Assembly: GCA_947313855.1 (NCBI GenBank)
Contig: CAMZNS010000024.1
Location: 1 to 52,336, forward strand
Direction of reading: 5' to 3'
DNA length: 52,336 bases
From: an uncultured Deferribacteraceae bacterium
Lineage (GTDB): Bacteria > Chrysiogenota > Deferribacteres > CAMZNJ01
The notes beneath the pieces are model-generated. The model made no database searches. It worked only from the letters and a program-made list of their open reading frames with translations, and had not been told where the DNA came from. Below, one piece after another: positions 4,925 through 50,989 of the stretch. The position numbers and the translations under genes were made by a program. Position 1 is the stretch's first letter. Each line of letters begins with the position of its first letter.

Positions 4925-5518
4925 CTACAGGTATTGAGATACGAGCAGTTGTTGTGCTTCCGTGGAGTTGTGTTTGAAAGTCATTATGAAAGCATCGGAG
5001 TTATTGTAATATTTTTTTCGGGTATTTGCAACAATAAATCCACACTTGTTATAAAACCGAACAGCAGTAGTGTTTTGATTTGATACCTCTAGGAATATCT
5101 TGTGCGATGTGTGTTGCGATGTGTGTTGCAGTGCGTGTCGGATTACGTGTCGAAGCAGGGTTGTGGCAACACCCTCACCGCGGGCGGAGGTTGTTACACC
5201 TAGTCGTAGTATCTCTGTTTCGTCCAGTAGGGTGCGTTGTACGATGTAGCCTGTGTAGCTGTTGCTATCGCTGTTGCGGTACAGGGTTGTGTGGGAGTGG
5301 GGGTTGCGTAGTTCGGCGAGGATGTTGTCAAGGCTCCAGCTGTGTGAGTCGGTAAGCTGTTGTGCGGGGGAGTTGGTACTGTTCGCCACCATGAAGCACG
5401 CTGTTTCCAAGGAATGGATGGCAGGGGCATGGTTCTCGTTGGCATGGATTAGGGTGTACGACGGGGATGTGTTGCGATTGTGTGTGTTGCGATTGTGTGT
5501 GTTGCGGTGTGCTGTCAT
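4925..5518 (-). CDS. rimI: GNAT acetyltransferase, RimI-like
   Basis: Probable N-alpha-acetyltransferase of the RimI type, which acetylates the N-terminal alanine of ribosomal protein S18 in E. coli. The GNAT fold shows in LRLGVTTSARGEGVATTLL (acetyl-CoA loop R-G-x-G-x-A) and NTTAVRFYNKCGF near the C-terminus. The start at 5518 overlaps the tsaB stop as ATGA, which indicates translational coupling; an upstream in-frame start at 5614 would overlap tsaB by 100 bases. Residues about 4-16 are three copies of RNTHN from a 15-bp repeat, and another low-complexity patch (HALQHTSQHTSHK) lies inside the acetyltransferase domain. Pairing with tsaB is a common arrangement in bacteria and supports the name. 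The substrate is inferred, not seen. Confidence 0.78.
   Translation of the reverse strand: MTAHRNTHNRNTHNRNTSPSYTLIHANENHAPAIHSLETACFMVANSTNSPAQQLTDSHSWSLDNILAELRNPHSHTTLYRNSDSNSYTGYIVQRTLLDETEILRLGVTTSARGEGVATTLLRHVIRHALQHTSQHTSHKIFLEVSNQNTTAVRFYNKCGFIVANTRKKYYNNSDAFIMTFKHNSTEAQQLLVSQYL
5472..5512 (-). repeat. 15-bp repeat coding for RNTHN at the RimI N-terminus
   Basis: About two and a half copies of a 15-bp unit immediately after the start codon. Each encodes Arg-Asn-Thr-His-Asn, so the frame is kept. Confidence 0.85.
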
Positions 5519-6339
5519 GGTTGCTGCGTCCGTGGATGGGCGTTTTGGGGCGGGTTGTAGGGGTTCGTTATGGAGTAAAACGGTGTGGGAGCCACTAGTA
5601 GGGCGTTGAGGCATGGGTGGGCAACAATCAGCAAGGGTATGATTTTGTGTTGTGGAGTAGTGGAGCTAAGTCCTGTATTTTCGTTGGCGTTAGCGTTAGC
5701 GTTGGCGTTTTCGTTGGCGTTAGATTGGGAGTGGCGACGTGGTTTGCTGGCAGAGTTCTCGTCAATAATGAGGGGGGTGCTGCTGTCCTCCTGTTGTGTG
5801 AGGGTTGCTTTGTCCACAAGGGAGTAGTCCGAAGCCATGGTGTGGGGGGACTTGGTGTGGGTGGACTTGGTGTGGGTGCGACCAGTATTGCACGAAGCAA
5901 AGTTGTAGCGACGAACAACGTAGCCGAACCGCTCACCCACCGCAACACGCAGGGTTGTCAGGTTGGACGACAGGGCAAAAGCATCGTTGGTGCTAATCCC
6001 TCGCATGGTTATGTTGAGGGCATCGCTAATGCCGAGGAGGGATGCCATGGCGATACGTAGTCCTGTGTAGGAGCCCGGTCCATTGACGACGATAATTCTG
6101 TGTAGCTGTGTTAGGGGTGTGTTTGCGGTGCTGAGAGTGTCTTTGATCATGGGCAGGAAGGTTGTGGTCATATTTCGGCTGACGGGGAGTATTTTTTCTG
6201 CTAGAAGTAGTGTGTTGTTGCTGTTGGTATTTTCGCGTGCAGTATTTTGTGCGATTACTGCCGTTTGGATGTAGTCGCCGTAAGCGTTTACGAATAGTGT
6301 GGTTCGGTTACTGTGTGTCATGTGTGTCATGTGTGTCAT
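5515..6339 (-). CDS. tsaB: TsaB-like tRNA threonylcarbamoyladenosine protein, with repeat-rich second half
   Basis: TsaB is the partner of TsaD in making N6-threonylcarbamoyladenosine at position 37 of ANN-decoding tRNAs. The N-terminal half has the ASKHA-type fold marker VNGPGSYTGLRIAMASLLGIS (about residues 90-110) and a first strand TLFVNAYGDYIQTAV. The 274-residue length exceeds the usual 220-230. The excess is low-complexity: THTKSTHTKSPHT near residue 156 and NANENANANANANENT near residue 207. The N-terminus reads MTHMTHMTHS because a 9-bp unit containing ATG is repeated three times (ATGs at 6339, 6330, 6321). AGGTGA seven bases before 6339 favours the first. It follows the hydrolase gene by 11 bases and overlaps rimI by four. 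The C-terminal half is poorly conserved, so I rely on the N-terminal motif. Confidence 0.8.
   Translation of the reverse strand: MTHMTHMTHSNRTTLFVNAYGDYIQTAVIAQNTARENTNSNNTLLLAEKILPVSRNMTTTFLPMIKDTLSTANTPLTQLHRIIVVNGPGSYTGLRIAMASLLGISDALNITMRGISTNDAFALSSNLTTLRVAVGERFGYVVRRYNFASCNTGRTHTKSTHTKSPHTMASDYSLVDKATLTQQEDSSTPLIIDENSASKPRRHSQSNANENANANANANENTGLSSTTPQHKIIPLLIVAHPCLNALLVAPTPFYSITNPYNPPQNAHPRTQQP
5672..5725 (-). repeat. 6-bp repeat inside tsaB coding for Asn-Ala/Asn-Glu
   Basis: Hexamers read on the minus strand as AACGCN or AACGAR give NANENANANANANENT. The unit is a multiple of three. Confidence 0.85.
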
Positions 6340-6345
6340 GTGTGC
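6319..6345 (-). repeat. 9-bp repeat carrying three alternative tsaB start codons
   Basis: The unit ATGACACAC is present three times in tandem, so each copy supplies an in-frame ATG. Changes in copy number would add or remove Met-Thr-His and change the spacing of the later ATGs from the ribosome site, without a frameshift. Confidence 0.85.
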
Positions 6346-6350
6346 TTCAC

Positions 6351-6995
6351 CTATCTGCGTAAGTGTGGGTTGTTCTGTTTTTCAAATCCGATGGTAGTGA
6401 ACGCATCATGTCCGGGGATAACTTTTGTGTTGTCGGGTAGTGTGAGCAGGTGTTTTTTGATTGCGGGCAGTAGTAGTTTGGGTTGTGCTAGGGGTATGTC
6501 TGTGCGTCCCATCCCTAGGCGAAACAGGGTGTCGCCGGCTAGTAGTAGGTTGATGGCGGGGATGTGGAAGCAGATTGAGCCGGGGGAGTGTCCGGGTACA
6601 TGTTTGAGGTGGATTTCGGTGTTGTCGCTCAGGGTGATAATCTGCCCGTGGTGGAGGTATTTGTCATCCATTTTGCTAGGTGTAAACATTGTGATTTCGT
6701 CGAGGTTGTAGGGGGATATCCATTCGTTGACCTGTTGTAGGAGTGGCAGTTCGAGTTCGTGGCAGTACACGGGAACGTCGTATTTCTCTGTGATGTATGC
6801 CACAGCACCGATGTGGTCGTAATGTGTGTGGGTAAGGAGTACCATCTGCAGAGTTGCACCTGTTTTGGCTAGCTCTTTGCTGATACGTTGCTCGCTCCCG
6901 CCGGGATCAACAATGAGGCAGTCCTCGCCGTTGTTGTAGGTTAGAATTGTGCAGTTGACCCCCAAGGGTTCTACTTGAAAATGTATGGCTTTCAT
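6351..6995 (-). CDS. Metallo-beta-lactamase fold hydrolase, glyoxalase II / YcbL-like
   Basis: Cytosolic metal-dependent hydrolase of the glyoxalase II-like branch. The metal motif HTHYDHIG lies near residue 55, followed by the later ligands in HVPGHSPGSICF, GDTLF (bridging Asp) and IPGHD near the C-terminus. The 214 residues match short YcbL-type proteins, which lack the longer C-terminal domain of classical glyoxalase II. The substrate is probably a thioester such as S-lactoylglutathione or an analogue, but the sequence does not decide this. The gene begins two bases after the murJ stop and ends 11 bases before tsaB, so it lies inside the leftward operon. The metal-binding fold is certain. 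Confidence 0.88.
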   Translation of the reverse strand: MKAIHFQVEPLGVNCTILTYNNGEDCLIVDPGGSEQRISKELAKTGATLQMVLLTHTHYDHIGAVAYITEKYDVPVYCHELELPLLQQVNEWISPYNLDEITMFTPSKMDDKYLHHGQIITLSDNTEIHLKHVPGHSPGSICFHIPAINLLLAGDTLFRLGMGRTDIPLAQPKLLLPAIKKHLLTLPDNTKVIPGHDAFTTIGFEKQNNPHLRR

Positions 6996-6997
6996 AG

Positions 6998-8860
6998 TTA
7001 GTCTAGCTCCTTGAACACTTTTATCAGTCGCACACCAGCAATACGGACGACGACGATGTACAATAATACACTGATTGAAACCATTAGTACAGCATGCATG
7101 CCGATACTGTGCATAAATATTAACGCAACACCCATGATACTGCTAGGTATGAATACTTGGCGGATAATACTGACTGCGGTGGAGGTGGCTGGTAGTAGTG
7201 GGAAACCGTGCTTGCGGAGCATTACCCAAAGCAAAATCATCTGAACCATGGACGTAAGAGTAAACGTGGCCGGGATGCTCAAGAAACCAAGGGGGAGCAA
7301 CAATATGTAGGACACAAGCATGGCAACCAAGGCGGATATGGCAATATACATGGGGGTGCGATACGAACCGAGGGAGTAGTAGATACGTGTGAATATGGAC
7401 GAAAGGGTAATAAACACAAGACTCACAGCGTACAACTGCAAAGCTCGGGCTGTCTGGGAAACATCCTCAGAGGTAAACGCATTGTAACCAAAGGCAAGAT
7501 CGATCAAGGGGTAAGGGATAACAACCAAACCGATGGCAGACGGGATAGTTAAAAGTAACGAAACCAAAATAACCCTCTTAATAAGGGGCATGGTAGCACG
7601 GATGGACGCCTCCTCCCCCATGGTTTGACGATTAACGGACAACTGGCGTGCCAACGAATTGAAAAACACAATACTCAACGCAACACCAAGAATTCCCAAC
7701 GGAAACTGCAGAACACGATGGGAATAAAACAGGTAGGTCACACTACCCATGGGCATAAAAGACGCAATAGAACGACCGATAAGCAAACCGATTTGAGACG
7801 AACCCAACGTAATCGCTGTGGGCAACATATTACGCAACGTCAACCAAAGGGCACTATCCACGGGGGATACACGAACATAACGCAAACCAGAACCGTAAGC
7901 AAACCCCCCAACCAATACCAACTGAACCAAACCACCACCCAAAATACTGTAAGCGATGACGTACATGTTGCCATCAAGGTGGGAGGATGCAAGGATACCA
8001 AAAATAAACGCCAAATTAAACAACGCAACAGAAGCATAAGGGATGTAGTACGAATTATAAACATTTAAATACGAAGTAAACGTGCCCATAAGACCAACAA
8101 TGGGGAGATACAACATAAGAAGACGAATAAGATTATTAATGTAAGAATTACTATCGCTGTCGCTAGTCAAAAAACCGGGCATGACGCTGTGACTCAATAT
8201 CTGTGGGAAAATAAGGGCAACAGCAACAATAATCAGAATCGCACCTAGCTGGAAAAATACTAACTGAGATAAGAAAATATTCGCAGAACGACGACTGTCA
8301 AGTGCCTTACTGTTGAGCAAGGGGATGTAGGAAGAACTAAAACTACCCTCAACAATTAAGACGCGGAAAAGATTGGGGATAGCAAATGCAGCAAGAAAAA
8401 TGTCCGTGGCATGACTCGCCCCAAGGGTAATAGCCATGGTGAGATCGCGGACAAAGCCGAGCACCCGACTGGTGAGAATGCCTAAGCTCATGCGGACAAT
8501 CTTGGGGGAGCGGGTGGATGGGTGTGACGACTGTGGTTGCTGTGACTGCTGTGGCGACTGCGACTGTGACTGCTGTGGCGACTGTGGTTGCTGTGGCGAC
8601 TGTGACTGCTGTGGCGACTGTGGTTGCTGTGACTGCTGTGGCGACTGCGACTGTGACTGCTGTGGCGACTGTGGTTGCTGTGACTGCTGTGGCGACTGCG
8701 ACTGTGACTGCTGTGGTTGCTGTGACTGCTGTGACGACTGTGGTTGCTGTGGCGACTGTGGTTGCTGTGACGACTGTGACTGCTGTGACGACTGTGACGA
8801 GAGATCCCCCTTGTTCCCACTGTTCTCAGAATTTTGAGGCGTTGTCGGCATATCCATCAT
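6998..8860 (-). CDS. murJ: Lipid II flippase MurJ with a Gln/Ser/Pro-rich N-terminal extension
   Basis: Integral inner-membrane flippase that moves the peptidoglycan precursor lipid II to the periplasmic face. The MurJ core starts near residue 120 with SLGILTSRVLGFVRDLTMAITLG and ATDIFLAAFAIPNLFRVLIVEGSFSSSYIPLL, followed by about 14 hydrophobic segments, as the family expects. Ahead of it lies about 100 residues built from SQQ, PQQ, SQSPQQ and similar units, which I do not know from MurJ homologues and which would face the cytosol. The start at 8860 is chosen because GAGGG lies five bases upstream; an in-frame start at 8935 has no such site. The protein is 620 residues against a usual 510-530. 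First gene of the leftward group. It complements the elongasome genes on the other side of the window. Confidence 0.93.
   Translation of the reverse strand: MMDMPTTPQNSENSGNKGDLSSQSSQQSQSSQQPQSPQQPQSSQQSQQPQQSQSQSPQQSQQPQSPQQSQSQSPQQSQQPQSPQQSQSPQQPQSPQQSQSQSPQQSQQPQSSHPSTRSPKIVRMSLGILTSRVLGFVRDLTMAITLGASHATDIFLAAFAIPNLFRVLIVEGSFSSSYIPLLNSKALDSRRSANIFLSQLVFFQLGAILIIVAVALIFPQILSHSVMPGFLTSDSDSNSYINNLIRLLMLYLPIVGLMGTFTSYLNVYNSYYIPYASVALFNLAFIFGILASSHLDGNMYVIAYSILGGGLVQLVLVGGFAYGSGLRYVRVSPVDSALWLTLRNMLPTAITLGSSQIGLLIGRSIASFMPMGSVTYLFYSHRVLQFPLGILGVALSIVFFNSLARQLSVNRQTMGEEASIRATMPLIKRVILVSLLLTIPSAIGLVVIPYPLIDLAFGYNAFTSEDVSQTARALQLYAVSLVFITLSSIFTRIYYSLGSYRTPMYIAISALVAMLVSYILLLPLGFLSIPATFTLTSMVQMILLWVMLRKHGFPLLPATSTAVSIIRQVFIPSSIMGVALIFMHSIGMHAVLMVSISVLLYIVVVRIAGVRLIKVFKELD
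8512..8806 (-). repeat. Gln-rich minisatellite in the murJ N-terminus
   Basis: Imperfect modules of 9 and 12 bases (CAGTCGCCACAG, CAACCACAG and similar on the minus strand) code for the SQQ/PQQ/SPQQ tract. Long open frames on the other strands of this stretch are shadows of the repeat. Confidence 0.93.
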
Positions 8861-8939
8861 TGCGACCCTCTCTGTAGCACATACGAAACGCACGAAGGGT
8901 ACACACAGACCGCTCAGAAGCAAGCCCGTATGCACCCGT

Positions 8940-8998
8940 TATCTATCGTCTATCGTCTATCGTCTAACGTCTATCATTTAACGTTAAACGTTAAACGT
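8940..8998. repeat. 7-bp array upstream of murJ
   Basis: Units CTATCGT, with variants TTAACGT and TAAACGT, repeat about eight times between murJ and the outer-membrane protein gene. I see no clear promoter in this gap. Confidence 0.88.
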
Positions 8999-9026
8999 AC
9001 ACTTCTTCAATAGTGGGCACTCGGTA

Positions 9027-9680: not shown

Positions 9681-9790
9681 AAGTGTAGTACTCCTTGGGA
9701 ATATAAAATAGTATAAGATTTTTCGATAGTATTTAGTTATTTAAAATGTCATAAACTGTGCCAACAAGCAGGTGCTAAAATAACACACAA

Positions 9791-9819: not shown

Positions 9820-9876
9820 CAAAAATTAAGCTTGATGCGAAAAATACTAGACGAACGGAAAGAGCTCCTGAACAAA

Positions 9877-12208: not shown

Positions 12209-13852
12209 GTGATTTTTCCCCCGAATATGTTCGCAAGGTTGCAAGTTAATCTTCGCCTCATGGTATCTACTCCAAAAGCGTACGTATTGCTTCTGTTGGC
12301 ACTGAGCCTCTCCAGCCTAGTGCTCTGGTCGTGTACGCCCGTTGCGACGCCTAGTAATGGTGCGTCTAGTGTTAGTATGGCTAATGTTGGTCTGACGAAC
12401 CTTGCTACGACCAACCTTGCTACGACCAGTAACATGGGTGGAACAGCAAACAACGGTCGTGGCTCCGTGGGGTTCTACGATATTGTGAGTAACGCCTCGG
12501 CACCCCTACCACTCACAGCCCTTTTGGACAACACCCCCCCCGTAAACTCGGGCAACAACAGCGATTCGATGCGAGACCTCGCCCAGTCTGAACAACTCTA
12601 CTTCGCCTACCTAAACAACGGCACTATCCCTGTAAGCCTGCACCTGCCTCAGGTTGACGCCGCAACATTCATCTCCGATCCGGAATCGCCACCAAGCGAC
12701 CCAACTATGTTCCCCTCCAACTACACCTACCCCATTAATATCGATCCCTTGGCAAAGAAATATATTAGCTACTACACAGGTCCAGCACGCCGAACATTTC
12801 AGATGTGGCTTGAGCGTTCCAATCGTTATATCGATGTTGTAAAAAATATTCTTTACGAAGAGGGTGTTCCTGTGGACTTCATGGCACTACCGTTTGCAGA
12901 AAGTGGCTACAACACCGAAGCTGTATCTTGGGTTGGCGCCACGGGTATCTGGCAGTTTATGCCCAAAACAGGACTCTACTACGGACTAAAACAAGACTTT
13001 TGGCAGGATGATCGCAAAGATTTCGAAGCCTCAACTAGAGCCGCTGCCAAATACCTGAAGAAATCGTACAAGCAGTTCGGAGATTGGCACCTGTCCACAG
13101 CATCCTACAACGCTGGTCCAGGGAAGATTAGCCGTGCCATATCATATTCACGATCCCGTGACTTCTACGTGCTCAACCAAGGCACATACCTTGCCAAAGA
13201 AACAAGTCACTACGTTCCGAAATACACCGCCCTGCTTATCATCTACAAAAACTACCTAGACTACGGCTTCACCATGCCCAAAACAGAGCCCATGATTTAC
13301 AAAACCATAAATATGCCAAGTCAGGCAAACTTTTATGTAATCGCAGATACGCTGGGGATTAGCGTTGGGGAGATACGTGAGTTTAACCCCGGATTGCTCC
13401 ACCCTGTAACGCCACCGAATTCGTACAACCTACGCATCCCCGTGTCGGTCAGCCAAAAGAACATCAACAAACTTCTGGGGATGAGTCGCGAAGAGCTACT
13501 GCAGTACACCGTTTACTATGCCAACAAAGGGCAGAGCGTCAAATCCATCGCTGATCGCTACGGGGTGTCCATCGCCGAGCTCAAACGTATTAACGCACTC
13601 TCCAGCAGCTACTTAACATCAACTAGACCCGTATTGGTGCCTCTGAAAGGTTACTACGATCGCAGCCTAAACAAATGGTTCCAGCTGAATGTTAAACCGG
13701 GTAACGATCTCTACCTTGTGCGTCGTGGCGACTCCTTGGAATCCATTGCACGTAAGGTAAGCATGAGTGTGGAGGAGTTAATCTACCTAAATGGGGAGCG
13801 GAGTTATGGTGAGATTATTCCGGGGCAACGCTTGGTGATTGGTGCACGTTAG
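12209..13852 (+). CDS. mltD: Membrane-bound lytic transglycosylase with LysM repeats (MltD-like lipoprotein)
   Basis: Periplasmic murein hydrolase that cleaves between N-acetylmuramic acid and N-acetylglucosamine. The hydrophobic N-terminus ends in a lipobox-like WSC (LSSLVLWSC), suggesting lipid anchoring. A Ser/Thr/Asn-rich linker follows, including a duplicated TNLATTNLATT from a 15-bp repeat. The SLT domain has the catalytic Glu in LPFAESGYN (about Glu231), GATGIWQFMPKTG and TASYNAGPGKI. The C-terminal third holds three LysM-type segments for peptidoglycan binding (FYVIADTLGISVGEI, YTVYYANKGQSVKSIADRYGVS, YLVRRGDSLESIARKVS). The GTG start at 12209 is supported by GAGG six bases upstream; ATGs at 12227 and 12260 lack one. 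The stop codon lies inside the first unit of the downstream minisatellite. Confidence 0.9.
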   Translation: MIFPPNMFARLQVNLRLMVSTPKAYVLLLLALSLSSLVLWSCTPVATPSNGASSVSMANVGLTNLATTNLATTSNMGGTANNGRGSVGFYDIVSNASAPLPLTALLDNTPPVNSGNNSDSMRDLAQSEQLYFAYLNNGTIPVSLHLPQVDAATFISDPESPPSDPTMFPSNYTYPINIDPLAKKYISYYTGPARRTFQMWLERSNRYIDVVKNILYEEGVPVDFMALPFAESGYNTEAVSWVGATGIWQFMPKTGLYYGLKQDFWQDDRKDFEASTRAAAKYLKKSYKQFGDWHLSTASYNAGPGKISRAISYSRSRDFYVLNQGTYLAKETSHYVPKYTALLIIYKNYLDYGFTMPKTEPMIYKTINMPSQANFYVIADTLGISVGEIREFNPGLLHPVTPPNSYNLRIPVSVSQKNINKLLGMSREELLQYTVYYANKGQSVKSIADRYGVSIAELKRINALSSSYLTSTRPVLVPLKGYYDRSLNKWFQLNVKPGNDLYLVRRGDSLESIARKVSMSVEELIYLNGERSYGEIIPGQRLVIGAR

Positions 13853-14223
13853 TGACGCGGTTGCGTTAGTGACGCGGTTGCGTTAGTGACGCGGTTGCGT
13901 TAGTGATGCGGTTGCGTTAGTGATGCGGTTACGTTAGTGATGCGGTTACGGTTACGTTAGTGATGCGGTTACGTTAGTGATGCGGTTACGTTAGTGATGC
14001 GGTTGCGTTAGTGATGCGGTTGCGTTAGTGATGCGGTTGCGGTTACGTTAGTGATGCGGTTACGTTAGTGATGCGGTTACGTTAGTGTTGCGGTTGCGGT
14101 TACGTTAGTGATGCGGTTACGTTAGTGATGCGGTTACGTTAGTGATGCGGTTACGGTTACGTTAGTGATGCGGTTGCGGTTACGTTAGTGATGCGGTTAC
14201 GTTAGTGTTGCGGTTGCGGTTAC
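13848..14223. repeat. 17-bp minisatellite, 20 units, starting at the mltD stop codon
   Basis: Twenty head-to-tail copies of GTTAGTGATGCGGTTAC, with C/T and A/G variants. Six units carry an extra GGTTAC or GGTTGC and are 23 bases long. The first unit includes the mltD stop TAG. Every unit contains TTAGTGA, so plus-strand translation is stopped repeatedly. No non-repeated spacers are present, which rules out a CRISPR array. The array fills nearly all of the 416-base gap before the transporter gene. Confidence 0.96.
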
Positions 14224-18794: not shown

Positions 18795-19808
18795 ATGCCT
18801 AGTTTAAGACCGTTACGACGTAAAATTTCATCCATCGAAAGTACACGCAAAATTACTGTTGCCATGAAAATGGTTTCAGCAGCCAAGCTTCGTAAAGCTG
18901 TGAACAACATGGATGCTGCGAAACCCTATGCCGAAGGGATAGTAGGGCTCATGTCCAAACTATCCACTACTGCTGTGGGGGATAATCCTTATTTGAGCAG
19001 TGGTGCTGAGTCATCGTCGTCCCATGGTGGCGGTGGCGATGTTGGTGTTGGTGTTGGTGGCAACGGCAATGCTGGTGGCACCCTTGTTGTTGTGATAACC
19101 TCCGACCGAGGTCTTTGTGGTGCGTTCAATACTGCTCTCATCAAGCGTGCCGTCACCCTCATGGACGCCGAAGGTCATAGCAATATCATGGTTTACGCTG
19201 TTGGGAAAAAAGGACACGACTATTTTAGTCGCAAGGGGTACAAAGTTGTCAACCCCCTGCAAACATACCCCCATGGGTTTACGTACGCTGATGCCACAGA
19301 TATCTCCGACAGCATCGACAAGATGTTTGTTTCAGGTGATTGCACCCGCGTGATCATGGTTCGCAACGAATACCGTAGCACAGCATCTCAGGTTCCGGTG
19401 GATTCGGTGGTTCTGCCCATCTCCCCTTCACCTATCCATGCTTCTGGTTCGAAGGTCGCCGATACGTCCCCTTTTGATGGAACCACCTCGGTTGCGTCCG
19501 CAGTGTCGTCCGCAGTGTCGTCCGCAGTGTCGCCCTCAGTGTCGCCCGTTGATGTATTCGAGTTTGAGCCAGAGGCAGACGCTGTTTTGGCAGAGCTGAT
19601 CCCGCGTTATATTCGTTTCACCCTGTATTTTGCTGTTTTGGAGTCCATTGCTGGGGAGAACGGTGCTAGGATGGTTGCCATGGATGCGGCTAGTCGCAAT
19701 GCCAAGGATCTTCTTGAGTCCACCAAAAGCGAGCTAAATAAGGCACGTCAGTCGAATATTACTGGAGAGCTACTGGATATCATTAACGGTGTGCAGGCAT
19801 TAGCCTAA
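18795..19808 (+). CDS. atpG: F-type ATP synthase subunit gamma, with two low-complexity insertions
   Basis: Central shaft of the rotary enzyme. The conserved ends are present: MPSLRPLRRKISSIESTRKITVAMKMVSAAKLRKA at the N-terminus, VVITSDRGLCGAFNT after it, and ESTKSELNKARQSNITGELLDIINGVQAL at the C-terminus. The protein is 337 residues, about 50 more than usual. The excess lies in residues about 68-95 (SSGAESSSSHGGGGDVGVGVGGNGNAGG) and about 212-254 (ending SAVSSAVSSAVSPSVSPV, from a 12-bp repeat). Both fall where the fold can accept loops, outside the shaft helices. It starts nine bases after atpA, with AGGGTGG before the ATG. Function is probably intact, since the frame is kept and both helices of the shaft are complete. 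Confidence 0.93.
   Translation: MPSLRPLRRKISSIESTRKITVAMKMVSAAKLRKAVNNMDAAKPYAEGIVGLMSKLSTTAVGDNPYLSSGAESSSSHGGGGDVGVGVGGNGNAGGTLVVVITSDRGLCGAFNTALIKRAVTLMDAEGHSNIMVYAVGKKGHDYFSRKGYKVVNPLQTYPHGFTYADATDISDSIDKMFVSGDCTRVIMVRNEYRSTASQVPVDSVVLPISPSPIHASGSKVADTSPFDGTTSVASAVSSAVSSAVSPSVSPVDVFEFEPEADAVLAELIPRYIRFTLYFAVLESIAGENGARMVAMDAASRNAKDLLESTKSELNKARQSNITGELLDIINGVQALA
19493..19552 (+). repeat. 12-bp repeat inside atpG
   Basis: The unit GCAGTGTCGTCC and variants repeat about four times and encode SAVS-type residues in a predicted surface insertion. The unit is a multiple of three. Confidence 0.87.
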
Positions 19809-21745: not shown

Positions 21746-23038
21746 TTAGCGGTCTGTGTGGTGCTCGCGTCCGTGGTGCTCGCGTCCGTGGTGCTCGCGT
21801 CCGTGGTGCTTGTACCCGTGGTGCTTGTACCCGTGGTGCTTGTACCCGTGGTATTCCATGAGTAGGTCGAGGACGCTCAGTGCAACCATACTCTCAGCAA
21901 TAACGATGCTACGGCTACCAACAAAACAATCATGACGACCACCAATTTCCACGTTGGTGTTCGCGTCCATGGTGTTAGCATCCGTGGTGTTCGCGTCCGT
22001 GGTGTTAGCATCCGTGGTGTTCGCGTCCGTGGTGCTCGCATCCGTGCTGGCGTTGCTTAGGGTGGCGTTCTCCTTGAGCAGCGATGAGGGTGCCTTAATA
22101 CTGTACCGTAAGGTAATGGTTTCACCGTTGGAGATGCCCCCTTGTATGCCACCATAGATACTTGGCGGTGATGGTGGGTTGTCCCCTGTCTTATTGGCTT
22201 TGCCTGTGTTGTTCGCCTTGCTAATGAGGGTATCCACGTCACTGCTCGTCATATGTCCAAACTGAAACCCCAGTCCGAACTCAACACCCGTTACAGCTGG
22301 TATGGACATAATCGCCCCAGCTAATTGGCTATTGAGCTTTCGGAACACAGGCTCGCCAACCCCCCCCTCTAGTCCTGCGATGGAGACTTCCACAACGCCA
22401 CCGATACTGTGTCCATTTTGACATGCCTGCTCGAGTGCGGTAATCATTGCGTTGTAGTTGTGTGGGAGTGGTGCTTTGATGGTATTTTGGTCGCTGTGGA
22501 CAAAGTCGAAGTCAACCATGTGTGCCCCTTTTGTCGGGTCGATGGTTGCGCGAGCCTCCCCCACAGCAACAACGTAGCCACAAATAGAGACGCCGTGTTG
22601 AGCCAGTATTTTGAGTGCGATGGCACCACCGGCAACTCGTCCGATGGTTTCCCTTGCGGAAGATCGTCCACCACCACGGTGGTCGCGGTGGTTGTATTTT
22701 AGGTGGTATGTGTAGTCGGCGTGTCCTGTTCGAAACGTATTTTTCAGGTGTTTGTAGTCGTTGCTATTGTGGTCGTTGTTTCGGACGATCATTGTTATTG
22801 GTGTGCCGAGTGTTTTGCCTTCGAATATGCCAGAGACAATTTCCACCGTATCTTTTTCATGTCGTGGAGTTTCGAACGGTTTTAATCCGGGTCGTCGTTT
22901 GTTGAGTTGTTTTTGGATGTATTGTGTGTCGATGTGGAGTCCTGCAGGGCATCCGTCAACGATGACGCCTAAGGCATGTCCATGGCTTTCGCCGAAAGTT
23001 GTGATGCGGAAATTGCGTCCGTAAGAGTTGCCTGCCAT
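21746..23038 (-). CDS. aroC: Chorismate synthase with two insertions of one 15-bp repeat
   Basis: Last enzyme of the shikimate pathway, converting 5-enolpyruvylshikimate-3-phosphate to chorismate with reduced FMN. Conserved blocks are GNSYGRNFRITTFGESHGHALGVIVDGCPAG, RRPGLKPFETPRHEKDTVEIVSGIFEG, HRDHRGGGRSSARETIGRVAGGAIA, and GGRHDCFVGSRSIVIAESMVALSVLDLLMEY near the C-terminus. The 430 residues exceed the usual 350-390 because of an inserted DANTT repeat (about residues 330-361) and a C-terminal tail of HGYKH and HGREH units (about residues 395-430). The core looks complete. It is the third gene of a fliD-fliS-aroC group on the minus strand; a shikimate gene behind flagellar genes is unusual. 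The stop abuts the atpC stop. Confidence 0.95.
   Translation of the reverse strand: MAGNSYGRNFRITTFGESHGHALGVIVDGCPAGLHIDTQYIQKQLNKRRPGLKPFETPRHEKDTVEIVSGIFEGKTLGTPITMIVRNNDHNSNDYKHLKNTFRTGHADYTYHLKYNHRDHRGGGRSSARETIGRVAGGAIALKILAQHGVSICGYVVAVGEARATIDPTKGAHMVDFDFVHSDQNTIKAPLPHNYNAMITALEQACQNGHSIGGVVEVSIAGLEGGVGEPVFRKLNSQLAGAIMSIPAVTGVEFGLGFQFGHMTSSDVDTLISKANNTGKANKTGDNPPSPPSIYGGIQGGISNGETITLRYSIKAPSSLLKENATLSNASTDASTTDANTTDANTTDANTTDANTMDANTNVEIGGRHDCFVGSRSIVIAESMVALSVLDLLMEYHGYKHHGYKHHGYKHHGREHHGREHHGREHHTDR
21752..21856 (-). repeat. 15-bp repeat forming the C-terminal tail of AroC
   Basis: Six or seven copies of a 15-bp unit, read on the minus strand as CAC-CAC-GGA-CGC-GAG (HHGRE) or its CAC-CAC-GGG-TAC-AAG variant (HHGYK). 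Confidence 0.92.
21953..22050 (-). repeat. 15-bp repeat inserted within AroC, same family as the tail repeat
   Basis: Six copies of a unit whose DNA matches the 21752-21856 repeat (plus strand GTGGTGTTCGCGTCC against GTGGTGCTCGCGTCC) but is read one frame over, as GAC-GCG-AAC-ACC-ACG (DANTT). Confidence 0.92.
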
Positions 23039-29604: not shown

Positions 29605-29780
29605 CAACGTAACGTAACGCAACGCAACGTAACGCAACGTAACGCAACGCAACGTAACGCAACGTAACGCAACGCAACGCAACGCAAGCAACGCAAGCAA
29701 CGCAAGCAACGCAACGCAAGCAACGCAAGCAACGCAAGCAACGTAACGCAAGCAACGTAACGCAAGCAACGCAAGCAACG
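29605..29780. repeat. Pentamer array (ACGCA/ACGTA) between the RND adaptor and pump genes
   Basis: About 35 units of CAACG, TAACG and CAAGCAACG types fill most of the gap 29546-29862. If the two genes form one operon, the array is transcribed. There is no sign of a hairpin or promoter in it. Confidence 0.94.
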
Positions 29781-33315: not shown

Positions 33316-33360
33316 GGTGCTCAGGGTGCTCAGGTGCTCAGGTGCTCAGGTGCTCAGGGG
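33316..33360. repeat. 9-bp GGTGCTCAG array at the pump gene stop
   Basis: About five copies start directly after the stop codon of the RND pump gene. Its GGTGCT core recurs inside the following ribF gene as GGTGCTGAC. Confidence 0.88.
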
Positions 33361-33442: not shown

Positions 33443-34612
33443 ATGAAAGTTTACTACGATATCCCAAACCTGAACGAACCAACATCCATCGTTATCGGAA
33501 ACTTTGACGGGGTACACGAAGCACACGATCAACTAATATCCATGGGGCAGATCGCCGCAAAAGAGGGGGAGCTCAAACTACTCATCCTCTCCCTCTACCC
33601 CCACCCATCCAAAGTAATACCCTACGAAAGCAAACTGCTATCCACACACCAACAACAAGTGGAACTACTCCGCAAATACAACCCTAGCTACATCGTGTTC
33701 ATGCCGTTTAGTCGCGAACTGCAAAACATTGAACCACAAAACTTCTTCGACAACATCCTCATACGTAAGCTGAATGCCAAAAATATTAGTGTTGGCTACA
33801 ACTACACTTTCGGCAAAAATCGCTTGGGCACCGTGGAAAAACTACGCGTAATGTGCCAAACAACACCGCAAACAGTCAACCTCTCAGTGCTGGAACGGGT
33901 GCAAATTAATCCCGAAACCTTTGTACTCAGTGGCGGGGCGGGGGGTGGTTACGGTGCTGACGGTGCTGACGGTGCTGACGGTGACGCGGAGTGTATATCC
34001 GTGTCGAGCACACACATACGACAAGCACTTATGGCAGGCAATTTATCCCTCGCAAACGCAATGCTGGGGCGGTACTACACCCTCGCAGGCAAAATCGTGC
34101 ACGGCGACGGCATCGGGAGCAAGTCTTTGTATCCAACAATAAATCTGGACTGTGAGAACGAACTACTACCCAACGACGGCATTTACGCAGGGTATGCCAC
34201 AGTGTTCCGCAGTATCGAGCCGACGATCATGGACGACGGTGCTGACGGTGCTGACGTTGCTGGCGGTGCTGACGTTGCTGGCGTTGCTGACGTTGCTGAC
34301 GGTGCTGACGGTGCTGGCACTCGAACCGACAACCATGCGTCGACCTATCGATGTGCAATTTACATAGGCAAACGCCCATCCATACCCCGCACCTCACACC
34401 ATGGTGCCCCCGCGACCCTAGATCAGCGTGTTGAAGCGTACCTGCTGAACTTCTCCGGGGATATTCACGGACGATACGTAATCCTACATCTGGCAAAGCA
34501 CATTCGCAATGACATAAAATTCCCCTCCTTTGAGCAACTCAAAGTGCAGATTACGAAGGATATTTCAGCCGTGCAGGAGACTCTGTCTAGCCTCCCACAC
34601 CCCTCACCCTAA
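33443..34612 (+). CDS. ribF: Bifunctional riboflavin kinase / FAD synthetase with Gly-Ala-Asp repeats
   Basis: Makes FMN from riboflavin and then FAD. The N-terminal adenylyltransferase domain has IVIGNFDGVHEAHDQLI and YNYTFGKNRLGTVEKL, and the SSTHIRQALMAGNLSLANAMLGRYYTLAG block leads into the kinase domain with GKIVHGDGIGSKSLYPTINLD (FMN-binding loop). Two insertions of GAD-type repeats lie at about residues 166-182 and 264-294, the second inside the kinase domain between strands. The start at 33443 (MKVYYDI) fits the family's beginning; GAGG lies twelve bases upstream, a long spacing. Earlier in-frame starts would read through the upstream 9-bp array. The protein is 389 residues against 300-320, the excess being the repeats and a C-terminal tail. 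Confidence 0.9.
   Translation: MKVYYDIPNLNEPTSIVIGNFDGVHEAHDQLISMGQIAAKEGELKLLILSLYPHPSKVIPYESKLLSTHQQQVELLRKYNPSYIVFMPFSRELQNIEPQNFFDNILIRKLNAKNISVGYNYTFGKNRLGTVEKLRVMCQTTPQTVNLSVLERVQINPETFVLSGGAGGGYGADGADGADGDAECISVSSTHIRQALMAGNLSLANAMLGRYYTLAGKIVHGDGIGSKSLYPTINLDCENELLPNDGIYAGYATVFRSIEPTIMDDGADGADVAGGADVAGVADVADGADGAGTRTDNHASTYRCAIYIGKRPSIPRTSHHGAPATLDQRVEAYLLNFSGDIHGRYVILHLAKHIRNDIKFPSFEQLKVQITKDISAVQETLSSLPHPSP
33942..33988 (+). repeat. 9-bp GGTGCTGAC repeat in ribF, first site
   Basis: Three full units and flanking variants encode Gly-Ala-Asp triplets between the adenylyltransferase and kinase domains. Confidence 0.9.
34234..34323 (+). repeat. 9-bp GGTGCTGAC/GTTGCTGGC repeat in ribF, second site
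   Basis: About nine units encoding Gly-Ala-Asp or Val-Ala-Gly triplets, inside the kinase domain. It is the same unit family as the first site. Confidence 0.9.
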
Positions 34613-37836: not shown

Positions 37837-38325
37837 CGTCTGCGTCTGAGTCGACTTGCCCGTCGGGTGTTGGGCGTTGGGCGCGGTGTGGTGACGTGTT
37901 GGGGTGGTGAGCGGGTCACGCGGTTGATCCGGGTTGTGGGTGCGTCGGGGTCGGGTGGCGCGTGGGGTGTTGGGGTTTGGTCGTGGGGTGGCTCGGGGTT
38001 TTGGTGGTTTAGGGGGGTCGCGTCGGCGTCTGAGTCGGCTTGCCCGTCGGGTGTTGGGCGTTGGTCGTGGTGTGGTTAGCGGTTCACGTGGTTAACGGCT
38101 CACGCGTCTGCGTCTGAGTCGACTTGCCCGTCGGGTGTTGGGCGTTGGTCGTGGTGTGGTTAGCGGTTCACGTGGTTAACGGCTCACGCGTCTGCGTCTG
38201 CGTCTGAGTCGACTTGCCCGTCGGGTGTTGGTCGTTGGTCGTGGTGTGGTTAGCGGTTCACGTGGTTAACGGCTCACGCGTCTGCGTCGGCGTCGGCTTG
38301 CCCGTCGGGTGTTGGGCGTTGGTCG
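37837..38325. repeat. Five 84-90-bp direct repeats between the RsmI-like gene and lysS
   Basis: Copies begin near 37837 (degenerate), 38020, 38104, 38188 and 38278. Each contains GCGTCTGCGTCTGAGTCGAC, CTTGCCCGTCGGGTGTTGGG, then GGTTCACGTGGTTAACGGCT. Units are 84, 84 and 90 bases apart; the 6-base difference is one extra GTCTGC. The first copy starts directly after the stop codon at 37836. There is no spacer between units, so this is not CRISPR. Confidence 0.93.
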
Positions 38326-38392
38326 TCAGTCGTCGGTCGTCGGTCGTCAGTCGTCGGTCGTCGGTCGTCAGTCGTCAGTCGTCGGTTGGTAC
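38326..38392. repeat. 7-bp CGTCGGT/CGTCAGT array
   Basis: About nine copies of a heptamer adjoining the 84-bp repeats, in the gap between the convergent RsmI-like and lysS genes. The rest of the gap to 38459 is an ACCAAC-rich remnant. Confidence 0.92.
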
Positions 38393-42619: not shown

Positions 42620-42622
42620 AAG

Positions 42623-45642: not shown

Positions 45643-45661
45643 TTCGACCAAGGGGGCTGAT

Positions 45662-46549: not shown

Positions 46550-46610
46550 TTTGTTCAGATTAGTTTATACTGTTTGTGTTGAGATAATTGTTGATTCTGT
46601 TGGTCACGAT

Positions 46611-46701
46611 AGAAATAGAAATAGAAATAGAAATAGAAATAGAAATAGAAATAGAAATAGAAATAAAAATAGAAATAAAAATAGAAATAAAAATAAAAAT
46701 A
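46611..46701. repeat. Hexanucleotide ATAGAA array ending two bases before a -35 box
   Basis: About fifteen units of ATAGAA, changing to ATAAAA near the end. The array ends directly before the TTGACA at 46703, so its length sets what lies upstream of the thioredoxin promoter. The gap 46550-46794 holds only this array and the promoter. Confidence 0.94.
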
Positions 46702-46702
46702 T

Positions 46703-46732
46703 TTGACACAGTGTTGACCCTATAGATACTAT
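46703..46732 (+). promoter_or_regulatory. Sigma70-type promoter for the thioredoxin gene
   Basis: TTGACA (46703-46708) and TACTAT (46727-46732), 18 bases apart, 62 bases before the start codon. Confidence 0.75.
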
Positions 46733-46794
46733 TAAATACTTAAGGATATGCTTGGGAGAAAATCTCTTGGGTATGTTTATTTTAGGAGGCTATT

Positions 46795-47112
46795 ATGGCT
46801 TTACATGTTACGGACGCTGATTTTCAGACACAAGTACTTGATTCATCTGTTCCTGTGTTGGTAGATTTTTGGGCAGAGTGGTGCCAACCATGTTTGATGC
46901 TTGCCCCTGTGATAGAGCAGGTAGGTCAGGATTTTGATGGTCGAGCAACAGTTGCCAAGCTTGATGTTGATGCGAACCCTATTTCGGCAGCGGAGTATGG
47001 TATTAGGAGTATACCGACGGTGCTTTTGTTTAAGGGTGGTGCTGTAGTTGAGCAGATTATTGGTGTTCAGCCTATAACTGCTTACAAGAAAGCTATTGAG
47101 AAGCATCTGTAG
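46795..47112 (+). CDS. Thioredoxin with a WCQPC active site
   Basis: Small cytosolic disulfide reductase; 105 residues, normal for thioredoxin. The fold markers are VLVDFWAEWC near the start, the buried Asp (VLVDF), KLDVDANPISAAEYGIRSIPTVLLFKGG with the cis-Pro after SI, and GVQPITAYKKAIEKHL. The active site is Trp29-Cys30-Gln31-Pro32-Cys33, whereas thioredoxin 1 has Gly in the middle; replacement of that Gly is known in other family members and usually changes redox potential. AGGAGG lies just before the ATG. Its own promoter and terminator make it a single-gene unit. Confidence 0.93.
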   Translation: MALHVTDADFQTQVLDSSVPVLVDFWAEWCQPCLMLAPVIEQVGQDFDGRATVAKLDVDANPISAAEYGIRSIPTVLLFKGGAVVEQIIGVQPITAYKKAIEKHL

Positions 47113-47157
47113 TTTGTAGTTTTGCTTTTGTCCTTAGTGGGCTGGGTATTGTACTGT

Positions 47158-47197
47158 GGACTATTGATTATTGATTATTGATTATTATTATTGTTAT
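47158..47197. repeat. TTGATTA short array before the thioredoxin terminator
   Basis: TATTGATTATTGATTATTG followed by TTATTA units; roughly five copies of a 7-base unit between the thioredoxin stop and its terminator. Confidence 0.75.
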
Positions 47198-47206
47198 TGG
47201 ACGCGT

Positions 47207-47243
47207 ACCCCTGCAGTCGGTTAGAGTCTGTGGGGGTTTTTTT
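47207..47243 (+). terminator. Intrinsic terminator after the thioredoxin gene
   Basis: ACCCCTGCAG (47207-47216) pairs with CTGTGGGGGT (47228-47237) over ten positions with two G-T pairs and an 11-base loop, followed by a run of seven T. It is the only convincing Rho-independent terminator I found in the window. Confidence 0.87.
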
Positions 47244-47282
47244 GTGCGTTGTGTGGGGTGGCTTACAGCTGTACCATCGGTG

Positions 47283-47311
47283 TTGAACTACCAACAAACA
47301 TGTGATATAAT
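47283..47311 (+). promoter_or_regulatory. Sigma70-type promoter for pheS-pheT
   Basis: TTGAAC (47283-47288) and TATAAT (47306-47311) with a 17-base spacer, 40 bases before the pheS start. Confidence 0.82.
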
Positions 47312-47350
47312 CAAAAGATTATTCTTGACTTTAAAACAAGGTGGAACAAT

Positions 47351-48418
47351 ATGAAGAAAAATACAAACAACACCGAAAATACAAACACGAACACAAACGC
47401 AAACACGAACATCAAAAACAACATCTCTAAACAACTCGAACTCGCAAAAGACCTAAAACAACTCGAACAAGTAAGACTCAACTTCCTAGGCAAAAAAGGA
47501 ACAATAACTCTACTAAACAAAGAAATAAAAAATATACCAACACACGAAAGAAAAAACTACGGCGAAAAAGTAAACAAACTCAGACAACACTTCGAAAATA
47601 TCTACAATGCAAAAAAAAATAACCTAGAAGAAACACACCTAAATAAGGCTCTAAACGAACAAACTCTAGACACAACCCTGCCCGGTGCAACATTCGGAAT
47701 GGGACTCGGAGCACACCACATACTCACAAGAGTCTACTACGAACTACTAGACATACTAATATCAATGGGATTCGAAGTAGTGGACGACAGGGAAGTGGAA
47801 GGAGTCTTCTACAACTTCACAGCACTCAATATGGACGAAAATCACCCCGCAAGGGACGAACACGATACGTTCTTCTTCGACGACAACACAGTGCTAAGAA
47901 CACACACTTCGTCCGTACAGATTCGACACATGCTCAAAAACAAACCACCCATCGCTATCGTATCCTCAGGCAAAGTTTATCGCAGCGACTACGATGCCAC
48001 ACACACACCAATGTTTCACCAAATCGAAGGACTGGTCGTGGACAAAGGAACAAGTATGGCCGAAATGAAGGGGGTGCTCTGGGAGCTAATCAGCACATTC
48101 TTCGGACGAAAAACAAAACTACGATTCAGAAGCAGTTACTTCCCCTTCACTGAACCATCGGCTGAAGTGGATATGGCTTGCTTCTCATGTAACGGCTCCG
48201 GATGCCGACTGTGTGGCGGTTCCGGATGGATCGAGGTTTTAGGATGCGGAATGGTGGACAACGAAGTCTTCAAACACGTGGACTACGATCACACCGAATA
48301 CTCAGGGTTTGCATTCGGAATGGGGGTGGAGCGTATGGCGATGCTCAAGTACTCCATCGACGACCTCAGACTATTCTACGACAACAATTACAAATTTCTC
48401 AACCAATGGAGGGGCTAG
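47351..48418 (+). CDS. pheS: Phenylalanyl-tRNA synthetase alpha subunit
   Basis: Catalytic half of the alpha2-beta2 enzyme charging tRNA-Phe. After an Asn/Thr repeat N-terminus (residues 1-25: NTNNTENTNTNTNANTNIKNN), the tRNA-binding coiled coil (QLELAKDLKQLEQVRLNFLGKKGTITLLNKEI) leads to the class II core: GAHHILTRVYYELLDILISMGFEVVDDREVEGVFYNFTALNMDENHPARDEHDTFFFDD, LRTHTSSVQIRHML, GKVYRSDYDATHTPMFHQIEGLVVD, CNGSGCRLCGGSGWIEVLGCGMVDNEV and GFAFGMGVERMAML (motif 3). Length 355 residues. AAGGTGG lies six bases before the ATG. The N-terminal repeat is an addition; the usual protein begins near the coiled coil. Confidence 0.97.
   Translation: MKKNTNNTENTNTNTNANTNIKNNISKQLELAKDLKQLEQVRLNFLGKKGTITLLNKEIKNIPTHERKNYGEKVNKLRQHFENIYNAKKNNLEETHLNKALNEQTLDTTLPGATFGMGLGAHHILTRVYYELLDILISMGFEVVDDREVEGVFYNFTALNMDENHPARDEHDTFFFDDNTVLRTHTSSVQIRHMLKNKPPIAIVSSGKVYRSDYDATHTPMFHQIEGLVVDKGTSMAEMKGVLWELISTFFGRKTKLRFRSSYFPFTEPSAEVDMACFSCNGSGCRLCGGSGWIEVLGCGMVDNEVFKHVDYDHTEYSGFAFGMGVERMAMLKYSIDDLRLFYDNNYKFLNQWRG
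47364..47426 (+). repeat. AACAC/AAAC-type simple repeat at the start of pheS
   Basis: Six-base units of ACAAAC and similar encode the Asn-Thr-Asn-Thr tract right behind the pheS start. Confidence 0.8.
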
Positions 48419-48421
48419 GGC

Positions 48422-50989
48422 ATGCTTGTACCTATTAAATGGCTAAATTCTTTTGTGGATACGAGGGACATCCCCTTTAACGAACTTGTGGACAGGGTGT
48501 CGGAGTGTGGTAACGAGGTTGACTCTGTTGCCGAATACCCCTGCCAAGGGGTGGTTACCGCCCTGGTCGAAAGCAAGGTGAAGCACCCCGATGCGGACAC
48601 CCTTGCCGTATGCGTAGTGTTTGACGGAGCACAACGACATAACGTTGTATGCGGGGCACCGAATGTTGATGCTGGACAGATAGTTGCCTTTGCCCCTATC
48701 GGTGCGAAGCTGCCTGAGATGGTTTTGCGTAAGGTGAAGATTCGCGGTATCGAGTCCCAAGGGATGATATGTTCCAAGGGTGAGTTGGGGCTCCCTGTTA
48801 CCGATGAGAGCGAGGATGGTATCTGGGTGCTGGGCACACACACACACGACACACACACACACGACACACACACACTCGGCACAAGTAGCAACAATAATGG
48901 CGACGCTGAAACAGTCCCCCTTGGACTAGATGTGGCTGAGATGTTCGCCATCGGCGGTGCGGTGCTGGATATCGGTCTAACGCCAAACCGTGGTGATTGC
49001 TTGAGTATTCGAGGCATGGCACGTGAGGTGCATGCCATATTCGACACACCCATGAAGCATGCCTACGAGGATGTTATTGCGAGTATGCCCGAGGCGTCGC
49101 AAAGTATTGCTGGTGGTGTGCCCACATACACGGTTGAGGGGGGTGCTGCGGATAGGTATCTTCTTGCCAAGGTTGCGGGTGTATCTGTTGGCGAGTCGCC
49201 GACGTTGATACAGGCACGTTTGCATGGTTGTGGCATTCGTCCCATAAATAATATTGTGGACACGACCAATTACGTCATGTTGGAGTTGGGGCAACCCATG
49301 CACGCTTTCGATGCCGACCATATCGAGGGGGATATTGCCATACGCCTCTCAGGTGAGGGGGAGCGGGTTGTAACGCTGGATGGGGCGGAGCGGAGCGTAC
49401 CTGCTGGCGTGCCCGTAATTACCGATGCTAAGGGTATTATTGCTATCGCGGGTGTTATGGGTGGGTTACGCGGATCGGTGTCCTCGTCCACAACGAATAT
49501 ACTGTTGGAGAGTGCCGTCTTCCCGCCAAGCCTTGTGCGTCGTAGTGCTAAGGTTTTGGGGTTGTCCACCGATTCGTCCCATAGGTTTGAGCGTGGTATT
49601 GATATCTCTACAACAGACGTTGCGTTGCGTTATGCTATCGCCCTGTTGAACACGGATGGGGCTGAGTATGCGTACTGCAACAATGCCGGTAGCGAATTTG
49701 TGTTGCCACCCAAACCTGTTATTCAGTTTGACGAGGAGTTTATCCCATCCCTGCTAGGGGCAGACGATATTACTCACGAGCAAATTACCGCCAACCTAGA
49801 AAAACTTGGGTATGGTGTGGCACGGGAAAATGGTCGATACGCCGTAACAGTACCCTATCACCGTATGGAAACAGCACGATACAGTGCCGACATCGCTGAA
49901 GAGGTTGTGCGTTTGTATGGCATCAACAACCTGCCCAACAAACTCCCCAAACTATTTGCCAAGGCGACGACGTTGCCTCAAGGATTCCAAGATCGCCGAA
50001 ATATATCCAGTGCACTGATACACCAAGGGTTCTTCGAAATTATCACCTACCCGTTCATCAAAAGTGAAACGGTAACCCTATTTGCCGAGAAGAGGGGTAC
50101 TGAACTGGAGCCGATGACCTTGCGTAATCCCATATCCGAAGACATGAAGGTGATGCGTACAACCATGGTCGCAAACCTCGTAACAACATTTGTCGCCAAC
50201 TTCAACCAAGGGGTGAGGTGGGGTAAGTTGTTCGAGTTCGGAAGCGTGTACAGGCATGAAAATAATACCACAACGCAAAACAATAACAGCAGTGGCGAGG
50301 GGATGAAGGTCGACGAAGAACCGCGGTTGGGACTACTCGCATACGGCGACGAACACTTTGCCACATACCCCTTTACCAACAAAGATACCAAAACTGAAGT
50401 ACAGTTCTTTGTCCTCAAAGGGGTTGTAACAAGGGTGCTTGCTGCCCTCGGAGCTGATGCTGAATTCAACACAACAGACACACCCGATTTCCTACACCCC
50501 GGTCGGGCATGCAATGTTATCCTGAAAGGGAAGTTCCCCGGTGGGAAAGAGGGAGTCGTGATCGGTATCATTGGCGAACTGCACCCTAATGTTGCCAAAA
50601 AATGCGATGCACCCGACGGAGTTGTTGTTGCAGAAATCTACACACACCTTGCAACATCACTAATAAAAAAACGGGTGCCAAAATTCAAAACATTCCTGCG
50701 AACACCAGATATTCGCAAAGACATAACCGTTGTTGTGGATGAAACAACACCCTTCGGCGACCTCGTACAAACCATATCCAAGGTGAAGCTGGGGAACGGA
50801 CTCAAAGTGGTGGACGTGTATTTGATCGACGAATATCGCAACGAAAAAGTATTGCAAGGGAAACGTTCCATTACAATAAGGGTGATGCTGAACGCGAGGG
50901 AATCCACGCCAACGGATACACACCTTAGCGAAGGGATGGACAGGGTTGTGCAGGCTCTGGCAGACAGCAATAACGCTGTGCTACGGTAG
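48422..50989 (+). CDS. pheT: Phenylalanyl-tRNA synthetase beta subunit
   Basis: Recognises tRNA-Phe and edits mischarged tyrosine. The 855 residues contain the tRNA-binding OB domain (VVTALVESKVKHPDADTLAVCVVFDGAQRHNVVCGAPNVDAGQIVAFAPIGAKLP), the B1-B5 region with MICSKGELGLP, LTPNRGDCLSIRGMAREV, RPINNIVDTTNYVMLELGQPMHAFDADHI, SHRFERGID, the catalytic-like domain (YPFIKSETV, LRNPISEDMKVMRTTMVANLV) and the C-terminal anticodon-binding fold (FKTFLRTPDIRKDITVVVDETTPFGDLVQTI). At residues about 138-156 a histidine/threonine tract (THTHDTHTHDTHTLGT) is inserted between the OB and B domains. GGAGG in the last pheS codons serves as its ribosome site. The stop lies in a 10-bp repeat. Confidence 0.96.
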   Translation: MLVPIKWLNSFVDTRDIPFNELVDRVSECGNEVDSVAEYPCQGVVTALVESKVKHPDADTLAVCVVFDGAQRHNVVCGAPNVDAGQIVAFAPIGAKLPEMVLRKVKIRGIESQGMICSKGELGLPVTDESEDGIWVLGTHTHDTHTHDTHTLGTSSNNNGDAETVPLGLDVAEMFAIGGAVLDIGLTPNRGDCLSIRGMAREVHAIFDTPMKHAYEDVIASMPEASQSIAGGVPTYTVEGGAADRYLLAKVAGVSVGESPTLIQARLHGCGIRPINNIVDTTNYVMLELGQPMHAFDADHIEGDIAIRLSGEGERVVTLDGAERSVPAGVPVITDAKGIIAIAGVMGGLRGSVSSSTTNILLESAVFPPSLVRRSAKVLGLSTDSSHRFERGIDISTTDVALRYAIALLNTDGAEYAYCNNAGSEFVLPPKPVIQFDEEFIPSLLGADDITHEQITANLEKLGYGVARENGRYAVTVPYHRMETARYSADIAEEVVRLYGINNLPNKLPKLFAKATTLPQGFQDRRNISSALIHQGFFEIITYPFIKSETVTLFAEKRGTELEPMTLRNPISEDMKVMRTTMVANLVTTFVANFNQGVRWGKLFEFGSVYRHENNTTTQNNNSSGEGMKVDEEPRLGLLAYGDEHFATYPFTNKDTKTEVQFFVLKGVVTRVLAALGADAEFNTTDTPDFLHPGRACNVILKGKFPGGKEGVVIGIIGELHPNVAKKCDAPDGVVVAEIYTHLATSLIKKRVPKFKTFLRTPDIRKDITVVVDETTPFGDLVQTISKVKLGNGLKVVDVYLIDEYRNEKVLQGKRSITIRVMLNARESTPTDTHLSEGMDRVVQALADSNNAVLR
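48836..48875 (+). repeat. ACACAC-rich repeat inside pheT coding for Thr-His-Asp
   Basis: Units of CACACGACA keep the frame and give THTHDTHTHDTHT, probably in a surface loop between domains. Confidence 0.82.

Follow-up and report, generated by a model that had tools for sequence, protein, structure and literature searches.

Selection against frameshifting repeats in coding DNA was reportedly described by Metzgar and colleagues in 2000 and in later work. The housekeeping proteins of Plasmodium carry fast-evolving low-complexity inserts, made of short codon runs under a strong AT bias. Among bacteria, the tandem-repeat genome of Ehrlichia ruminantium (Collins et al. 2005) is ascribed, in a passage of a later paper, to a process targeted at noncoding regions (PMC10710844), and the Rickettsia palindromic elements (Ogata et al. 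2000, 2002) are described in part of another as palindromes of about 150 bp belonging to ten families (PMC10969869). The tandem arrays analysed here belong to a kind of phenomenon that is already known; their scale, their targets and the cut-off in the size of their units appear to be new.

The window, by which we mean the whole stretch of 52,336 nucleotides that was analysed, is one contig (C24) of a Deferribacteres metagenome-assembled genome (G000; 1.34 Mb in 49 contigs, 91% complete, GC content about 47%). Its congener, G001, is a SnakePit metagenome-assembled genome from the midgut of Rimicaris, and the two share about 87% nucleotide identity. The genus inhabits the gut of shrimps living at deep-sea vents, and G000, judged by its size, its GC content and this identity, is probably another of the Rimicaris genomes; the name Ca. 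Rimicarispirillum atlantis appears in a later publication (PMC12887300). Passages of the papers on the Rimicaris Deferribacteres symbionts (PMC9636832, PMC12887300) make no mention of tandem repeats in coding genes, and the word ‘tandem’ is absent from the former. A genome scan with an AroC query found no third congener; a match in Halorubrum was discarded, as it aligned to the repeat stretch of the query only. The samples analysed comprised 298 kb of G000 and 349 kb of G001, one genome per species. Gene calling relied on a simple home-made model, which in the version used still misses MreB, and the coding core was defined as confident genes minus their first 60 codons, 442 kb in all.

Array density was 4.9 per 10 kb in G000 and 5.2 in G001, as against family means of 0 to 1.5 in relatives, and arrays covered 4.7% and 4.1% of the sampled DNA, respectively. 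An array was present in 47 of 196 confident genes of G000 (24%) and 57 of 230 of G001 (25%), compared with 6 of 284 (2.1%) in relatives. Array-bearing genes with an assigned family include those for FtsY, RsmB, a sigma factor, a LolC/E permease, a PLP enzyme, topoisomerase I and a diguanylate cyclase, and SbcD, MutL and PolA also bear arrays. First-order Markov sequence of matched composition gave zero scored tracts with units of at least 5 bp, and third-order Markov sequence gave zero tracts with units of 6-12 bp at a length of at least 24 bp, so the arrays are not due to chance. The orientation of arrays with respect to the replication strand or the transcription strand is weak and disagrees between G000 and G001. 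One relative (G024) has high array coverage, largely because of its long 108-bp repeats (L117, 3305-8096), which differ in kind from the arrays studied here.

Within the window, the sequence-only reading had named low-complexity stretches in nine conserved proteins, and repeat detection found an array in every one of them (MurJ, TsaB, RimI, AtpG, AroC, RibF, PheS, PheT and MltD). The features are as follows.

3300..3578, plus strand: small open reading frame that consists of repeats with 9-bp (HEPREPR) and 21-bp units and is probably a product of these arrays
4925..5614, minus strand: RimI, with arrays at 5103-5129 (12-bp unit, aa 162-170) and 5468-5506 (15-bp unit, N-terminal, aa 37-49)
5515..6339, minus strand: TsaB, with arrays at 5682-5723 (6/12-bp unit, aa 206-219), 5838-5878 (15-bp unit, aa 154-167) and 6312-6344 (9-bp unit, at the start codon, coding MTHMTHMTH)
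6998..8935, minus strand: MurJ, with an 18-bp array at 8523-8796 coding a Q/S/P-rich N-terminal extension (aa 47-137)
12209..13852, plus strand: MltD, with a 15-bp array at 12394-12428 (LTNLATTNLATT) in the N-terminal linker
13846..14215: intergenic 17-bp array, 21 copies
19013..19088, plus strand: AtpG insert 1, about aa 74-95, S/G-rich, with a 6-bp array at 19040-19059 (aa 82-88)
19385..19619, plus strand: AtpG insert 2, about aa 212-252, with a 12-bp array at 19495-19548 (aa 234-251)
21758..21852, minus strand: AroC C-terminal tail array, 15-bp unit (HGYKH/HGREH), past the last conserved helix
21955..22046, minus strand: AroC internal array, 15-bp unit (DANTT), just ahead of the GRHD motif
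29605..29780: intergenic 5-bp array, 37 copies
33316-33358: 8-bp array in the frame called as RibF, probably upstream of the true RibF start (MKVYYDIPN)
33951..33983, plus strand: RibF array 1, 9-bp unit, GAD repeats, between the adenylyltransferase and kinase blocks
34235..34316, plus strand: RibF array 2, 9-bp unit, 9 copies
37942..38326: intergenic 84-bp array, 4.5 copies
47377..47421, plus strand: PheS N-terminal array, 6/18-bp unit (ENTNTNTNANTN)
48835..48883, plus strand: PheT array, 15-bp unit (THTHD), aa 138-154

Weak arrays are present in FliD and FliS too. Of the unit lengths first given for coding arrays, 6, 9, 12, 15 and 21 bp were recovered and 42 bp was not found, with 18 bp also in use; the intergenic units of 5, 7, 10, 11 and 17 bp were all confirmed, and units of 30 and 84 bp were seen in addition. 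AtpA, AtpD, SerS and the core of LysS had been taken from the outset to be untouched, and AtpA, AtpD, SerS and LysS align to G001 without gaps at 99, 99, 93 and 96%. Two further observations concern the same window. The metK gene (4518-4850, minus strand) gave a first impression of truncation, which was ruled out: the reading frame continues unbroken as far as the N-terminus should reach. The start is non-standard, there being no in-frame ATG, GTG or TTG, and a GGGGGAG motif lies ahead of ATC/ATA codons. At the window edge (129-1553), this gut symbiont has a gene for an astacin-like (M12A) zinc protease.

The term ‘insertions’, under which these stretches were first grouped, holds for only part of them, since the arrays at the N-termini of MurJ, PheS and RimI, that in the N-terminal linker of MltD and the second AroC array are terminal extensions. 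In MurJ, for instance, the recognized domain (aa 149-637) lies downstream of the array-coded extension. An AlphaFold model of AtpG built from a two-sequence alignment was unusable (mean pLDDT 35), and insert placement was therefore taken from alignments to solved homologues in the PDB, by which the proposed mapping on structures could be carried out. These alignments place the inserts between conserved blocks: at about aa 68-95 and 212-252 in AtpG, at about aa 137-163 in PheT, at aa 205-222 and about 304-340 in RibF, in a short turn in RimI and just before GRHD in AroC. Relatives sharing the same inserts would have spoken against the sequence-only reading, and a search for them, made in part, favoured it: AtpG is 337 aa long in G000 and 317 aa in G001, and the proteins of other relatives are without the inserts (about 279-319 aa for all those with a full-length frame, and 284-307 aa for those within the class).

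The idea that selection has kept only in-frame events received strong support. The repeat unit was divisible by three for 38 of 41 arrays in the coding cores of G000 and 71 of 72 in those of G001 (109 of 113 together), as compared with 26 of 73 and 32 of 86 in noncoding DNA (58 of 159 together), where the proportion is close to a random third (Fisher test of coding core against noncoding DNA, 9e-10 for G000 and 2e-18 for G001). Of the four exceptions, three are weak, amounting to roughly two copies each, and the fourth is PheT, whose CA-rich array really has a 15-bp unit, so that no convincing array with a frame-breaking unit was found in the 442 kb of coding core. Arrays with units divisible by three reach 0.32 (G000) and 0.45 (G001) of their noncoding density inside genes, and those with other units 0.014 and 0.004. 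As even the former are rarer in genes than outside and the latter are nearly gone, the pattern reflects removal of frame-breaking events and not an excess of triplets driven by codons. A test that is independent of repeat finding gave the same picture: net length differences between G000 and G001 were multiples of three in 37 of 47 cases inside genes and in 10 of 42 between genes (P=2e-7), and all ten of the within-gene exceptions lie close to the beginning of a called frame, a region in which the real start codon is in doubt.

Comparison of the two species further showed that the arrays turn over. Among 76 ortholog pairs, 20 of them array-bearing, 12 array sites were shared, 10 were private to G000 and 11 to G001, and identity was 88% outside arrays and 59% inside. 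Random placement would give 1.2 shared sites if arrays could fall anywhere and 4.1 if the genes were kept, against the 12 observed. At shared protein sites the unit often differs between the species, and this reoccupation with differing units marks the sites as tolerant places that are reused. In PheT, the corresponding position of G001 is filled by a different 15-bp unit (QHQGT/QHQDA) repeated nine times, and in SbcD a single site between the GDVFD and GNHD motifs is occupied by 18 copies of an 18-bp unit in G000 and 14 copies of a 9-bp unit in G001, the HN/HD/A array (L123, L124) amounting to about 111 aa and about 41 aa, respectively. Relative to the window, G001 is 45 nt shorter in AtpG insert 1, a net 27 nt shorter in AtpG insert 2, 42 nt shorter in the AroC internal array and 63 nt shorter in RibF array 2, and it lacks the GAD array of RibF. 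At the place of the intergenic 84-bp array it has arrays of 21-51 bp with another sequence. The dN/dS ratio of the cores between G000 and G001 is 0.096, so purifying selection is effective on them.

The frame filter operates where selection still maintains the gene, and it is not absolute for every gene, as aroC of G001 (C40, L095) makes plain. This gene has lost by an out-of-frame deletion the 55 nt that in G000 encode a conserved C-terminal helix (window equivalent about 21853-21910), and its tail array is read in another frame, whereas the window aroC is intact; either the helix is dispensable in G001 or the gene is decaying. The arrays of G001 aroC have an identical stretch of about 35 bp in common, which suggests local copying between arrays. 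The two AroC arrays of the window (21758-22046) belong to the same 15-bp family and are read in different frames.

The size of the repeat unit is subject to a limit as well. Units of 1-4 bp showed no clear excess over relatives, whereas those of at least 6 bp were in strong excess in both genomes and five-base units were weakly raised. Among tracts of at least 18 bp, units of 2, 3 and 4 bp were absent from G000, G001 and relatives alike, while 6-bp tracts occurred at 6.4 and 6.9 per 100 kb (G000 and G001, as against 0.5 in relatives) and 9-bp tracts at 25 and 25 per 100 kb (as against 3.8). None of the listed intergenic arrays had a unit below 5 bp. The cut-off is not perfectly sharp, since at a length of at least 12 bp the 3-bp tracts slightly exceed those of relatives (4.7-4.9 vs 1.5 per 100 kb), as do the 2-bp tracts of G000 (1.0 vs 0.25 per 100 kb). 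Homopolymer frequency is the same as in relatives; apparent long one-base tracts in G000 proved to be runs of N. Selection in genes does not explain the gap in small units, as 3-bp units are harmless to the frame and yet missing. The MutS of Escherichia coli is described, in a passage of PMC5427490, as repairing loops of up to four nucleotides, a limit measured in fission yeast, and the boundary found here matches it. MutS is present at full length with its FYE and GPNMAGKST motifs, as is MutL, both scoring above their curated cut-offs with open frames, and recJ, polA, xseA, recA and sbcD are likewise present in the lineage. With small units near background, large units in excess and mutS and mutL in place, we infer that mismatch repair corrects small slips and leaves large ones in place.

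We consider it likely that the arrays result from large-loop slippage that escapes mismatch repair and is subsequently filtered by selection on the reading frame. The arrays would arise when DNA slips (or is exchanged unequally) by at least 5 bases at a time; loops of up to 4 bases would be removed by MutS and MutL while larger ones escape; and selection would purge from genes the arrays with frame-breaking units along with more than half of those divisible by three, the survivors being those situated in loops, linkers and termini. Much of this inserted sequence is probably ballast, neutral or mildly harmful, which strong drift in a host-bound population may have allowed to persist. A more far-reaching proposal, which we advance only tentatively and regard as the less probable outcome, is that a lineage-specific change in replication or large-loop processing has raised slippage of at least 5 bases with mismatch repair intact. 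The genome would then preserve a natural archive of slips of this size, and essential enzymes would steadily acquire new disordered stretches through successive expansions at loops that tolerate them. Rather than escape from mismatch repair, the origin of the arrays may also lie in a defect of a different pathway that restrains such slippage, for instance in the replisome or in lagging-strand processing.

Array length and sequence differ between species, and AtpG insert 2 lies at the site of the regulatory insert of the chloroplast gamma subunit, both of which might be expected of programmed variable contingency loci that tune or switch proteins. We think this very improbable, as the targets identified are not mainly surface genes, with cytosolic enzymes, repair nucleases, a sigma factor, FtsY and TopA among them, the insert sequences are unconserved between species, and units that are in frame make on/off switching of a gene impossible. 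A hypermutator with unstable repeats, produced by loss of mismatch repair, is slightly less probable again: the reduced symbiont genome and its very many repeats would suit such a state, but mutS and mutL are present with conserved motifs and long mono- and dinucleotide runs, its classic marker, exceed those of relatives by a trace at most. There is very little chance that the inserts are copies of mobile elements carrying an open frame. In-frame insertion into unrelated housekeeping genes does resemble the Rickettsia case as described in part of PMC10969869; the repeats, however, are tandem, the unit at one site differs between species, 80-82% of arrays are singletons, unrelated to any other array (117 of 146 and 149 of 181), and the units are no more self-complementary than shuffled ones. 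Our simple gene caller and the use of metagenome assemblies could in principle mean that divisibility by three stems artificially from codon structure or from the gene calls, or that the arrays themselves are assembly errors, yet this is just as implausible given that only arrays with frame-breaking units vanish from genes, that between-species indels obey the same frame rule and that two separate assemblies have arrays at the same sites with different units.

Large-loop slippage filtered by frame selection would make these genomes informative in several respects. Protein tolerance to in-frame additions can be read over a large share of the genes, with the congener as a replicate, and the split between small and large units provides a natural test in the wild of the loop-size limit of mismatch repair. 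Proteins are expected to shrink in reduced symbiont genomes, whereas AtpG, SbcD and others have grown here. Annotation based on length, and family cut-offs, may miss genes in such symbionts, RimI having scored below its curated family cut-off.

Set beside the systems described at the outset, the arrays share with frame selection of the Metzgar type the property that coding repeats are nearly all multiples of three and noncoding repeats are not, but the classic case concerns microsatellites of 1-6 bp, whereas here the units are mainly of 6-21 bp, hardly any are of 2-4 bp, and one gene in four carries an array. As in Ehrlichia ruminantium, a small host-bound genome contains widespread tandem repeats that expand and contract; here, however, they also lie within housekeeping genes. 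The in-frame additions to unrelated housekeeping genes recall the Rickettsia palindromic elements, from which they differ in consisting of local tandem units with no common family. Like Plasmodium, the present genus has housekeeping proteins with low-complexity inserts, although it is a bacterium of about 47% GC and its units are longer. Finally, AtpG insert 2 aligns to the same loop as the insert of the chloroplast ATP synthase gamma subunit (PDB 6fkf, chain g) and is of similar length; it contains no cysteine (aa 212-252) and gives no sign of redox control, and, unlike the chloroplast insert, it is repetitive and unconserved between species.
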